Positions 7,480 through 37,791 of a stretch of DNA of 64,000 nucleotides are shown here, one piece after another. The stretch's first letter is position 1. The number at the start of each line of letters is the position of its first letter. The position numbers were made by a program, and so were the translations under genes. The stretch comes from Pseudomonadota bacterium (GTDB lineage: Bacteria; Pseudomonadota; Alphaproteobacteria; UBA1280; RI-95). The stretch covers positions 1 to 64,000 of the forward strand of contig WGLU01000008.1 of NCBI GenBank assembly GCA_016125375.1, in the 5' to 3' direction. The notes under the pieces are model-generated. The model saw only the letters and a program-made list of their open reading frames with translations. It was not told the origin of the DNA and ran no database searches.

Positions 7480-7493
7480 GGCACACACCGCTT

Positions 7494-7519
7494 AAAACCC
7501 CGCCACGGCGGGGTTTTTT
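7494..7519 (+). terminator. intrinsic terminator
   Basis: aaaaccccgccacggcggggtttttt. Confidence 0.85.
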
Positions 7520-7603
7520 GTTGCCCTGTCGGACAGGATTGGGTAGATTGCATACAATTTCTTATCTTCTGTTTCTTTTGCCTGTCTTCAGGAGTGCCTC
7601 CCC

Positions 7604-32000: not shown

Positions 32001-32759
32001 ATGAAGCGGGAATTTTCTTTGCCTGCCGGTTTTGCTGGCCGTGTATGTTTTCTGGCCATTGCCACTTTCAGTTCAATTGCTCTGGCGCCGTCGGCCCATG
32101 CGCAGATTATCGTTCAGGAAGTTGTCCGCTACATCAAACCAAAGCAGCGCCCTGTTGAAAACATCCTGCTCAAAAACACCGATGACAAACGCTCGTTCGA
32201 AGTGACGACAGACGTCATCCGCGAAATCGGTAGTGGCTCACCAGACCGGACACAGGAACCAACCAAAGATATCATTATCGCCCCGCCAAGTTTCATCATC
32301 AAACCGGGTGAAACCAAACTCACCCGCATGGTCCTGAGCAAGCCTGCCGACCCGAATGAAGAGCGCATTTACCGTGTTCACTTCCGTCCGGGCAAGGGCC
32401 GTACACCGGACGCAGATGCCAAACCAGACCCGCAAGGCGGTGTCAAAACACAGATAACCTTCGTGACGACAACGGGCATGCTGATTCTTGTCGCCCCACA
32501 GAACATGGACCCCAAACTCACCTATACCCGCGACAAGGATGCGATAACCTTCAAAAACGACGGGAACGTTACACTGGATATCCGCCGATTTGACAATTAT
32601 TGCTTCGATCAGGAGCAAAAAGACTGTATGGACCTGCCGGGTTATCGTCTGTATCCGGGACAGTCCTGGAGGCTCGAGATACCGGGAAACAAACCCGTCC
32701 GCTACAACTACTCAGCCTATGAAGACATAAGGTCGATAACGGTTGATGCGCAAAACTAA
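32001..32759 (+). CDS. periplasmic fimbrial chaperone-like (PapD-type) protein
   Basis: Signal peptide; PPSFIIKPGETKLTRMVLSKPADPNEERIYRVHFRP. Confidence 0.78.
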   Translation: MKREFSLPAGFAGRVCFLAIATFSSIALAPSAHAQIIVQEVVRYIKPKQRPVENILLKNTDDKRSFEVTTDVIREIGSGSPDRTQEPTKDIIIAPPSFIIKPGETKLTRMVLSKPADPNEERIYRVHFRPGKGRTPDADAKPDPQGGVKTQITFVTTTGMLILVAPQNMDPKLTYTRDKDAITFKNDGNVTLDIRRFDNYCFDQEQKDCMDLPGYRLYPGQSWRLEIPGNKPVRYNYSAYEDIRSITVDAQN

Positions 32760-35211
32760 GCTTTTACTGGCTTTTTCTTTCTGCCTGTCCATCATGGCAG
32801 GTGTGGTGCCTGCCTTTGCCCAGCAGTCCGATGACCTGCCTGCAGCGGAAGCAGCTCAGGCAACGCCAATGCCTGCCAGCGATGTACCTCTTACCCCTGT
32901 AGAACAGGTGGTGCCGAATGACCTGAGCCAACAGCTGACGGACCCAATGACCGACCCCAACGCCATTACACTGGTGTTCGACCTTTATGTCGGCGGGCGC
33001 TATCAGGGTGACGTCGTTGTGACCTATACCGACACGCTGCTTACCCTTCACGATCCTATCGGTGCTTTGGATCTGGTGCCCAACCTCAAAGATCCAAAAG
33101 CTCTACTGCCGCTGTTCAGGAACCCGATTGAGACCGAGCGCGTAATGCCCGGCCTTGGTCGCGTCACCATCAACCGGAACCTATTCCGTATTGAGGTTTC
33201 TATTGAACCCCAACACCTGATTATCCAGAAAATCGATGTCACCGAAGAGAACCTGGAGCCGGAAGAAAAGTTCACTGCGCGTACAGACTTCCGCGCTACT
33301 GGTAGCACCGATTTTGACAGTGACCCGACACGCCTATCGGTTCAACACTTTAGCCAGCCAAGTTTTGGCCGTAACCGCATCGACTGGCAAGGGACCATGA
33401 ACCGTGGCAAAGGCTACGACCTGACCGACCTGGCCTACGCTTTTGAAACAGGCAAACTGACCTATAAAGCTGGTCTGCTCGAAACAGAGGGGCAACGCTT
33501 TGCGGGCAGTAGAAGCTTTACAGGCTTTGAAGTTGGCACAACGGAAAAAACACTTTTCAACAACCCGCTGCTTGAAGGTACCCGTTTGGAAGTCTTCGTA
33601 CCAGAAGCCGCAAAAGTGGATATTTTCCGTGGTGATCAGTTGCTCTTCTCCCGCACACTTGATTTTGGCCTACAGGAAATTGACACCTCCCGTTTCCCGA
33701 ACGGCAGCTATGAAGTTGAGATTGTCATTACCGACCGCAGCGGCACGGAAACCCGCGAACGCCGCCTGTTCACACGCACACGTACGTTGACCCCCTTTGG
33801 CAAACCGCGCTGGCGCGCCCAGGCCGGCTTGCTGCGGGATAACATTGACGCCACCGCCACACCGGTTATGGAAGGATCTTACAGCGAACGTGTAAACGAT
33901 AACATTGAGCTAGGCGGCTCTGTTTACGGCGGCGAGGACAAGCTGATTTTCGAGGGTTCGCTCAAAACTGTTTGGGGAAGCAACAAGTTTGAGAGCAACC
34001 TGTCCTGGACGCCTGACAACGATCTGGCCATCTACAACCAGTATGATCGCGATTTTGACTGGGGCAACCTGTATCTGAACTATAGCAAAACCCTGATGGG
34101 CCACGATGATCCCGAGAATGACGACCCAAGCGTGTTCGATGCCCTTAGCCGTAAAAACGAATCGATGTCATTCGTTACAAACCTGCGCCTAGAAAGTGCC
34201 ACACTGTCTCTTAAAGCTAACCGTAACCGCTCGGCACAAGGGAATGTGAATTACTCCTATGGCCCGAGCCTGCGTTACCCCCTTATCAGTAAGCGCCCCC
34301 ACCGTTTAGACCTCAACCTGGACTGGGTTGAAACAAACGCCGGGAACAATTCCGGTGCTTTCTTGCGTTACACATACAGCCCGGAAGGCCGATATACTTA
34401 CACCAGCAACCCTGGTGTCCGGCGTACAGCGACAGAAACAAGCTTTAACATTGCCAATACCGTGCAAATGCGCTCTAAAGATGCCACTGGTCTTGGCTTG
34501 AGCGGCAACCTGCAAAGCACGACATTCCGAGGCAGCGAGCGGACAACCCAGCGTACGGCTTTGGGTGTTGGCTACAAAACGGGTACATCAAACCTGACCA
34601 TGAACGCCATCTCCAACCAGAACAGCAATAGCGAAAACACGCAAAGCATGAGTCTGGAAGCCTATACGGCCATCCTTTATGCCGATGGCAAACTCGCCTT
34701 CACCGGTAACCGCGGCCGCGACGGTGCGGTGTTGGTTGTTGAGCTTACCGGCAATGCCAAGGGTCAAAAAATGAACATCGTGGCGAACGGGCGAACCATC
34801 GGCTCTGCCCTCGTGGGGGAGAAGGTGGCCATTTACCTTGAACCGTTCAGAACTTACACCTTCGAGCTGCAAACGGCTGATAAAAATGACCTCGCCAGTT
34901 TCACGACCGAGAAGTACGTCACAACCCTCTACCCGGGTAACGTGACAACCCGTCAATGGATGGTTAATAAAGCTATTCTGGCTTTTGGCCGGGTTGTGGA
35001 TATCACTGGTAAACCGATTGCCTGGAAGCGTCTATCAGGACTGCGCGACAAGAATGTTCTGACCGATGGATACGGCTACTTCACTGTTGAATATACCGGC
35101 AAAGAGACGCCGTATATCAACGCGGAGAGCACCCGCTGCACATTTGCCATGCCCTATATTCAGGACGACACGGAATACTTTATTAACGTAGGGGATATCG
35201 TGTGTCTGTAA
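32746..35211 (+). CDS. outer-membrane usher, CS1/TcfC-like
   Basis: 821 aa; signal peptide; LEVFVPEAAKVDIFRGDQLLFSRTLDFGLQEIDTSRFPNGSYEVEI; overlaps chaperone gene by 14 bp. Confidence 0.8.
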   Translation: MRKTKLLLAFSFCLSIMAGVVPAFAQQSDDLPAAEAAQATPMPASDVPLTPVEQVVPNDLSQQLTDPMTDPNAITLVFDLYVGGRYQGDVVVTYTDTLLTLHDPIGALDLVPNLKDPKALLPLFRNPIETERVMPGLGRVTINRNLFRIEVSIEPQHLIIQKIDVTEENLEPEEKFTARTDFRATGSTDFDSDPTRLSVQHFSQPSFGRNRIDWQGTMNRGKGYDLTDLAYAFETGKLTYKAGLLETEGQRFAGSRSFTGFEVGTTEKTLFNNPLLEGTRLEVFVPEAAKVDIFRGDQLLFSRTLDFGLQEIDTSRFPNGSYEVEIVITDRSGTETRERRLFTRTRTLTPFGKPRWRAQAGLLRDNIDATATPVMEGSYSERVNDNIELGGSVYGGEDKLIFEGSLKTVWGSNKFESNLSWTPDNDLAIYNQYDRDFDWGNLYLNYSKTLMGHDDPENDDPSVFDALSRKNESMSFVTNLRLESATLSLKANRNRSAQGNVNYSYGPSLRYPLISKRPHRLDLNLDWVETNAGNNSGAFLRYTYSPEGRYTYTSNPGVRRTATETSFNIANTVQMRSKDATGLGLSGNLQSTTFRGSERTTQRTALGVGYKTGTSNLTMNAISNQNSNSENTQSMSLEAYTAILYADGKLAFTGNRGRDGAVLVVELTGNAKGQKMNIVANGRTIGSALVGEKVAIYLEPFRTYTFELQTADKNDLASFTTEKYVTTLYPGNVTTRQWMVNKAILAFGRVVDITGKPIAWKRLSGLRDKNVLTDGYGYFTVEYTGKETPYINAESTRCTFAMPYIQDDTEYFINVGDIVCL

Positions 35212-35238
35212 AGGATGTCAGTTTTTTCAGAAAAAACA

Positions 35239-35548
35239 TGATATACTAAAAATGTCTAACAATTCCGCCCCTACTCTCTGGTAAAACTGGCGACTGTCAG
35301 GGGCGGCTAAAAATTCCCTTTTGTGCATGCGCAAAAGAGGAAGAGTCGGGCGAGAGTTTGCCCGTAAGCAGCAAGTAGCTGTGCGCGGTCACAAAACCCG
35401 CGGGTTTTGCAGGTAACAAAGTGTTTTGGCACGGTCCCTGCTTAGCTGACGGACGTTACTATACCGGCAACATGCTTTCCGGTCTGCGTTCAGAGTAAGG
35501 GCCTCAAGATCCTTACCAATACGAATAAACAAAACGAGGATATATCCA
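35239..35548 (+). promoter_or_regulatory. extended -10 promoter plus ~300-nt hairpin-rich leader of pilin gene
   Basis: TG-A-TATACT at 35239-35247, followed by several perfect inverted repeats including CAAAACCCGCGGGTTTTG (35392-35409). Confidence 0.6.
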
Positions 35549-36109
35549 ATGCTGAAACATATCGCTTACGCTGCCGGTGCCCTGTTGCTGTCCGCAACAT
35601 CTGCAATGGCTGCCACTGCTGACGGTACCCAAGGCGCAACATCCACAGGTACCATTGATATTTCTATCCAGATTTTGGAAGAAGTGAACATTCTGGGTCT
35701 GACTACCGACTGGGGTGCAGGCGCCGGTAACGGTATTGACTTCGGGGTATGGGACTCTTCGTCCGTTGCCAACGAAACTCAAACCATCTCCGTCTGCGTT
35801 TACCGTAACAACGGTACGGACTATGACGTAACTGCCGATACCACAGCTGCTGGTAACGCCTTCCTGTTGGAAGGTGCGTTGGTTCCTGCCAACACAATTG
35901 CCTTCACAGTTGACTGGGATACAGCTGGTGTGAACCAGGCTCTGACGGCAACAACACCATTCACCGCTTCTACCGGTGATAACGACCCGACATGCTCCGG
36001 TCTGTTCCCGATCAACGTGCTGTTCACAATCCCGAACGCCAACTTGGCCGCACAGACCAACCAGGACACCTACTCTACTCAGGTGAACTTCCAGATCGAC
36101 CCTCAGTAA
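35549..36109 (+). CDS. putative major pilin subunit
   Basis: Signal peptide MLKHIAYAAGALLLSATSAMA; beta-rich 186-aa protein directly downstream of usher. Confidence 0.65.
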   Translation: MLKHIAYAAGALLLSATSAMAATADGTQGATSTGTIDISIQILEEVNILGLTTDWGAGAGNGIDFGVWDSSSVANETQTISVCVYRNNGTDYDVTADTTAAGNAFLLEGALVPANTIAFTVDWDTAGVNQALTATTPFTASTGDNDPTCSGLFPINVLFTIPNANLAAQTNQDTYSTQVNFQIDPQ

Positions 36110-36126
36110 GGGTTACTGGTCAAGGG

Positions 36127-36153
36127 AAAGGGCGCTTTTGCGCCCTTTTTCTT
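36127..36153 (+). terminator. intrinsic terminator
   Basis: aaagggcgcttttgcgccctttttc. Confidence 0.8.
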
Positions 36154-36270: not shown

Positions 36271-37791
36271 ATGACCGCGCTCCTTAACCTCATTCGGACC
36301 ATTTCGATTCGTTGGCGCCTGCGCGTCAGCTTTTTTGGTATCAACGTGATGCAGGTTTGTATGGCCGCCATCGGCATTATCCTTGCCGGTTACCTGTATA
36401 CCGACATGATCAAGATGAGCGACAATGCCGCCAAGGCCAACGAGGTGCAGGCCATTTTAAAGGGCCTGAACAATGGCGCGCTGGAGCTGGCACACCTGAC
36501 TATCGCAAATACCGAAGAAGACATTAAAAAGCAAAGCGTCCACGTACGGACAAACATGGATCAGGCCCGTGCCCAGCTGAAAAAAATTGCCGAGGAAAGC
36601 CAGTTTGACGCTGAAGAAGCAGCTCTTTTTCAGGGCCTTCAACCGGCTATCGAGCAATTTATGCGTGAATCGGATGTCATCATCAATTACGCCATGCGCA
36701 ACCAGGACACACTGGCCTTTGACGCCATTTTGCAGATGGACGATGTGTTGGAAAAGGTCAATACATCTTTCAGTACTTTCACCTCTTACGAGACAGAGCG
36801 CGCTACCCACATGAGTGGCGAGGCCTCCAAAATTCACGACATGATGTTCTACGGCATGATGTCCCTGACGGTTATCGGCTTTGCTCTGGCCCAGATTACC
36901 GCCTACCTGGTGACGCGCTCCATTACCGATGCTGTGGGCGCTGTTTCGAACCAGCTGAACGAACTGGCTCAGGGTGACGCCAACCTGACTGTCCGTATCC
37001 CGACCAAAGGGCGTGATGAAGTGACAGACCTGTCGAAAAATTTCAATAATTTCGCCCAGAAAATTAACGACATTCTGCGCACTGTCCGCTCGTCGGTGGA
37101 TATGGTCGGCGCATCCTCTCAACAAATTGCCTCCACCGCTCAGGAAATCGAGGGGAACATCCAGCACGAACAGACAGCTCTGCAACAGATTGTGACCGCA
37201 ATTAACGAGGCTTCCAGCACAGTTACCGACGTCAGCCACATGGCCCGTTCGGCTGCCAGCAACGTAGAGGTTATTGCTCAGGAAGCGGCACAGGCCGACA
37301 CGGTGATGCAGGACCTGATTGAGAACTCCAGTACCATCACGACAGTGGTCAAGGTAATCGACGATATCTCCGAGCAAACCAACCTGCTTGCACTGAACGC
37401 AGCCATCGAAGCTGCCCGTGCAGGCGATGCCGGACGCGGGTTTGCCGTGGTTGCGGACGAAGTGCGCAAGCTGGCGTCCAACACAAGCAAATCCACAAAA
37501 GAGATCAACGAGGTTATTGCCGTTCTGCAATCCAACATTCAACGTACACAACAGGCCCTGACCAAAATCAGCGGTTCCATACGCGGGATTAATGAAGAGG
37601 TGAACAAGGTCTCCTCCGCGACCGGTCAGCAATCCAGCACGATTGAGCAAATCAGCGCTACCGTGCGGGAGTTCTCGGCCCAGATGAACAATACCTCGGC
37701 CGCCATGGTGCAAACGAGTGCCGCCACCAATGCGTTGGCAACTGAAGCCGCAAAACTCTCTGACGAGGTTTCCGTCTTCAAACTGAAATAA
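36271..37791 (+). CDS. methyl-accepting chemotaxis protein
   Basis: HAMP region and signalling hairpin [37 protein letters not shown]. Confidence 0.96.

Follow-up and report, generated by a model that had tools for sequence, protein, structure and literature searches.

What is the role of the long stretch that separates the usher gene from the pilin gene in a chaperone-usher locus of an alphaproteobacterium of the UBA1280 lineage? We have analyzed this locus in a window of 64,000 nucleotides (the whole stretch of contig WGLU01000008.1 presented here; its genome is G000), starting from an original prediction that saw in the gap a single hairpin-dense leader of about 300 nt, possibly a riboswitch or an sRNA. 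The genes run from a glycosyltransferase-like and an ispG-like one through the PapD chaperone and the usher, which has TcfC and CooC_C domains, to the gap and the pilin-type gene, followed by a terminator and a chemotaxis receptor gene. The flagellar and ispG-like names used here come from recognition of the sequences and not from family searches, except where family evidence is given. The main features around the gap are:

32001..32759, + strand: PapD-type periplasmic chaperone gene (Pfam PF00345, 3.4e-6)
32743..35211, + strand: usher gene of the CS1/TcfC-CooC type (Pfam PF16967 and PF15976)
35212..35548, + strand: usher-pilin gap; no longer intergenic gap was found in the window
35549..36109, + strand: pilin-type gene, 186 aa, signal peptide judged by eye
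36122..36153, + strand: intrinsic terminator-like hairpin 3' of the pilin gene

The succession chaperone, usher, gap and pilin was also found in three other genomes of the same order, G003, G005 (with two pilins) and G002, whose ushers are 29–33% identical to that of the window over the alignment and whose usher-pilin gaps measure about 228–378 nt. The product of the pilin-type gene gave no Pfam or NCBIfam match in profile searches, and is akin to the pilins at these syntenic loci. Directly 3' of it in the window lies a gene for a methyl-accepting chemotaxis protein (36271-37791), and G005 and G002 have a similar gene after the pilin. More pilin-like genes, with no adjoining chaperone or usher, were detected near a thrS-like gene in G005 and G003 (L024:3630-5889 and L025:5348-6440).

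At the pilin-proximal end of the gap we found a sigma-54 promoter that the original prediction had missed, from which a much shorter leader is predicted:

35427..35442, + strand: sigma-54 (-24/-12) promoter TGGCACGGTCCCTGCT, by sequence match, with GG at 35428-35429 (-24) and GC at 35440-35441 (-12)
35453..35548, + strand: predicted pilin mRNA leader of about 96 nt, its start placed 12 nt after the C of the -12 element

The invariant GG and GC are 10 bp apart (GG-N10-GC), and 7 of the 8 scored flanking positions agree with TGGCACG-N4-TTGCW. Equivalent sites, with 6–8 of the 8 scored positions, were present 5' of the pilin in five other genomes, the three mentioned above and two of another order (G087 and G391). 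The aligned promoters are TTTTGGCACGGTCCCTGCTT in the window, TTTTGGCACGGTATATGCAA in G003, TTTTGGCACGGTCTGTGCAA in G005 and AAATGGCATGACTCGTGCAT in G002, and in the other order CTTGGCACGGCCATTGCTT in G087 and TTGGCACGTAGGTTGCTT in G391. When the gaps were compared side by side this promoter was the one thing in common, and in the five loci tested only 0–1.5% of the shuffled gaps contained such a site. That the gap is regulatory and probably lifts the pilin independently of the usher, as had been proposed, fits well with a promoter in this position. The idea of a single leader of about 300 nt does not, with a conserved internal promoter that predicts transcription from 35453. Another start had been suggested further upstream, near 35254, after an extended -10. 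The letters are indeed there, but we found neither a sigma-70-type site of at least 9/12 nor an equivalent in the relatives.

The exact pattern TGGCACGNNNNNTGCW occurs at six sites in the genome of the window, including the one described here, where base counts predict about two by chance. Four of the others are directly 5' of flagellar units (flgK, the flgI operon, flgB and flgF), and the sixth precedes a gene for a small conserved protein of 58 aa, whose counterpart in G005 also follows a sigma-54 site. This small uncharacterised protein (58–75 aa, with the motif DIFEIID/DVFEIIE) lies behind an exact sigma-54 promoter at L041:1284-1460 and L099:1252-1479. Allowing one mismatch there was no enrichment in the own genome (102 matches against 116 in the control). 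In the relatives the exact pattern was enriched over the reversed control, e.g., 13 vs. 1 in G003 and 15 vs. 2 in G087, with matches preceding flgF, flgG, flgB, flagellin and motA genes.

The genome codes for three full sigma-54 activators, with the AAA+ loop GAFTGA in two of them (L027 and L028) and GAFSGA in the third (L029), and these together with the flagellar sites imply the presence of rpoN. One activator has FlbD as its best family match (524 bits, under the strict cut-off of 750) and its gene adjoins fliN-like and motA-like genes. A pilin promoter like the flagellar ones of the same genome and an FlbD-like activator beside flagellar genes make co-control with the late flagellar genes the likeliest wiring, with FlbD as the presumptive activator. 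The sequences thus suggest that the adhesive pilus is turned on along with motility. A Gibbs search for a common activator-site motif gave results within the null, and the palindromes located at -52 and -125 share none with the flagellar promoters. A match to a Caulobacter-like ftr site (CCGGCAACATGC at 35464) was discarded, as 1.5 such matches are expected by chance in the window.

The repeats listed in the original prediction proved exact in letters and coordinates, and most of them lie upstream of the sigma-54 promoter:

35239..35247, + strand: TGATATACT, the earlier extended -10, probably no promoter
35265..35306: inverted repeat CCGCCCCT/AGGGGCGG 5' of the sigma-54 promoter, its arms separated by a loop of 26 nt
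35318..35337: imperfect palindrome CTTTTGTGCATGCGCAAAAG, centred near -125 relative to the predicted start, possibly bound by an activator
35347..35364: inverted repeat CGGGC/GCCCG
35392..35409: perfect 18-bp palindrome CAAAACCCGCGGGTTTTG, single copy, centre about -52, candidate DNA site
35463-35483 and 35495-35516: small hairpins of the predicted leader, ACCGG/CCGGT and GTAAGG/CCTTAC

The excess of inverted repeats in the gap is real but modest. There are six perfect stems of at least 6 bp in 35212-35548 against 2.5 expected from dinucleotide shuffles (P 0.027), and the longest has 9 bp (P 0.023). Folded as a single RNA, 35254-35560 is only mildly better than its shuffles (z -1.8). The stretch upstream of the predicted start (35212-35452), where four of the six listed repeats lie, the 18-bp palindrome among them, gave z -3.4, whereas 35453-35560 folds as by chance (z +0.2). 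The description as hairpin-dense is thus true of the DNA 5' of the promoter and not of the predicted leader. Another intergenic stretch of the window, 7480-7603, folds strongly (z -4.9) and is perhaps a terminator.

The comparison with relatives indicates that the hairpins do not form an element conserved in kind and position. In G003 and G005 the promoter lies shortly after the end of the usher gene, and the stretch that folds well (z -3.6 and -4.9, respectively) comes downstream of the promoter, within leaders of about 339 and 262 nt, while in the window it is upstream; the leader of G002 has 47 nt and little structure. No counterpart of the stems of the gap was found at the homologous loci, an absence that the original prediction itself had named as speaking against a structured RNA. 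A DNA search with the gap over its own genome and 95 related genomes recovered only the gap itself and chance matches. The Rfam search that had been recommended (Rfam 15) gave nothing over the gathering threshold in the gap or the window, the best score being 16.5 bits, against 48 required, for Clostridiales-1. A novel riboswitch or sRNA spanning the whole gap, which the serial hairpins, the structured pilin leaders of relatives and the conservation of one such leader within a genus might recall, is therefore very improbable in view of these negative searches and of the conserved promoter in its interior.

More plausible, yet still doubtful, is that the hairpins between 35265 and 35409 work in the mRNA, with transcription reading through from the usher into the pilin and the stems hindering decay or being processed to leave a stable pilin mRNA, by analogy with other fimbrial operons. 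The upstream z value leaves room for such a role. No intrinsic terminator (a G+C-rich stem followed by a T-run) was found on the + strand of the gap, and strong folding is also predicted 3' of the promoter in G003 and G005, but the stems are not conserved and the structure changes sides of the promoter among genomes. Read-through of this kind can coexist with the sigma-54 promoter.

Distant relatives suggest that long pilin leaders can be functional. In G087 and G391, two species of one genus, identity is 45% upstream of the promoter and 90% from the start to the ATG (L026:6088-6269 and L138:1320-1500), above the 64% found at third codon positions of the pilin. Conservation sets in at the promoter itself. 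Such a sharp edge and such identity point to a constrained leader, acting either as RNA or as downstream enhancer DNA; its sequence is absent from the window. A small ORF in the G087 leader was dismissed because of a frameshift in G391. That the conserved stretch would be enhancer DNA similar to the Caulobacter ftr sites is a possibility to which we give limited weight. Downstream ftr elements are known for Caulobacter sigma-54 flagellar promoters, according to the title of a paper of 1993 that PMC3096577 cites. Against this, conservation in G087 and G391 covers about 180 nt up to the ATG, beyond the need of a few sites, and the Gibbs search retrieved no shared motif. In another pair of genomes (G388 and G389) tandem pilins have a common two-hairpin leader with CAGGUA in a loop (L139, L140, L144, L145 and L147). 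Its pair statistics, over four sequences, were not above shuffles, a covariance model of it (R1) found no match in the gap of the window, and no Rfam family was detected among the pilin leaders of the relatives, this type included. The likeness of GUAGGUAA in the G005 leaders to the c-di-GMP-I core was also abandoned when Rfam showed no such match.

At the end of the predicted leader there is a second conserved element:

35536..35547, + strand: conserved 12-mer GAGGATATATCC, Shine-Dalgarno plus 10-bp palindrome, 1 nt 5' of the ATG

The 12-mer, one base and the ATG are found together at four pilin starts of three genomes (G000, G003 and both pilins of G005). There is one other copy in the order, within an ankyrin-like reading frame, and GAGGATATATCCNATG occurs elsewhere in 2 places over 386 genomes of the class, about the chance number. 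The Shine-Dalgarno accounts only for the GAGG within it; ATATATCC makes up one half. Its spacing to the ATG is constant, while its distance to the start predicted from the promoter ranges from about 85 to 325 nt, and the second pilin of G005 has the 12-mer and no sigma-54 site. Its role is therefore most likely in translation initiation. A different block, AAAGGAAAATCGCGATG, is conserved near the ATG of the pilin genes in the other order (L026 6250-6275, L138, L145 and L147).

CsrA is a candidate for the translational regulator, by analogy with the flagellin of Bacillus subtilis. It would bind AGGAU over the Shine-Dalgarno of the short leader and FliW, freed at flagellar assembly, would relieve the repression, a scheme that we regard as rather unlikely. 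Of six genomes of the order, five code for CsrA; FliW adjoins it at the five loci examined, and both lie in the flagellar cluster. The GGA coincides with the Shine-Dalgarno as in CsrA targets (GAGGAT, 35536-35541), a location of CsrA known for flagellin (PMC7652899), and GAGGAUAU resembles the SELEX consensus RUACARGGAUGU from the same source. However, CsrA targets usually expose an unpaired GGA in a hairpin loop, and here the GGA and UCC of the 12-mer can pair as a small hairpin, GGA-UAUA-UCC, in the fold predictions for G000 and G005; pairing of the GGA lowers CsrA binding (PMC7652899). The ACA of the consensus is absent and the 96-nt leader contains only one GGA. The csrA and fliW genes are adjacent in a flagellar cluster of G000 (contig C6, L127:950-1656), and the Caulobacter genome taken as control has no csrA. 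More broadly, GAGGAUAUAUCC could be an element peculiar to this order that controls translation at the start of chaperone-usher pilins and is recognized by a regulator of the flagellar checkpoint, either CsrA-FliW or some other factor; we put this forward as a speculation with a small chance of being right.

That sigma-54 controls flagella and type IV pili is well established, and in PilR-RpoN systems it raises the major pilin from its own promoter. The locus described here would have that feature in common with them, but its pilus is of the chaperone-usher type and no PilS-PilR was seen nearby. To the sigma-54/FlbD class III-IV flagellar promoters of Caulobacter and other alphaproteobacteria it is similar in the -24/-12 form, the FlbD-like activator and the exact matches before flagellar operons; it differs in driving a chaperone-usher pilin and in having only candidate activator sites. 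The usher with TcfC and CooC_C domains and the PapD chaperone are those of CS1/alternate chaperone-usher (TcfC/CooC) pili, although in this case the pilin is under all Pfam thresholds, has its own promoter and is followed by a chemotaxis receptor gene. The Hag-FliW-CsrA system of B. subtilis likewise has csrA and fliW adjacent in a flagellar cluster and a GGA over the Shine-Dalgarno, but the putative target here is a pilin and the GGA is predicted to be paired.

Taking all this together, we consider it highly probable that the usher-pilin gap is a promoter region plus a short leader, giving a separate sigma-54 pilin transcript, most likely under flagellar-type co-control. The promoter at 35427-35442 would start this transcript near 35453, so that the cell could produce more of the major subunit than of chaperone and usher, and could do so only while an enhancer-binding activator is active. 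Late flagellar genes and pilin would share this control through the FlbD-like activator. The repeats 5' of the promoter are best interpreted as DNA sites, either for the activator or architectural, or as hairpins in read-through usher mRNA, and GAGGATATATCC over the ribosome-binding site probably serves to control translation initiation. Read in this manner, most of the conspicuous hairpins of the gap would fall outside the pilin mRNA. If translation through GAGGAUAUAUCC were indeed regulated as speculated above, both it and sigma-54 transcription would couple pilus production to flagellar assembly. A promoter of the flagellar type that is conserved in front of a chaperone-usher pilin gene suggests joint switching of attachment and motility in this little-studied bacterial order.
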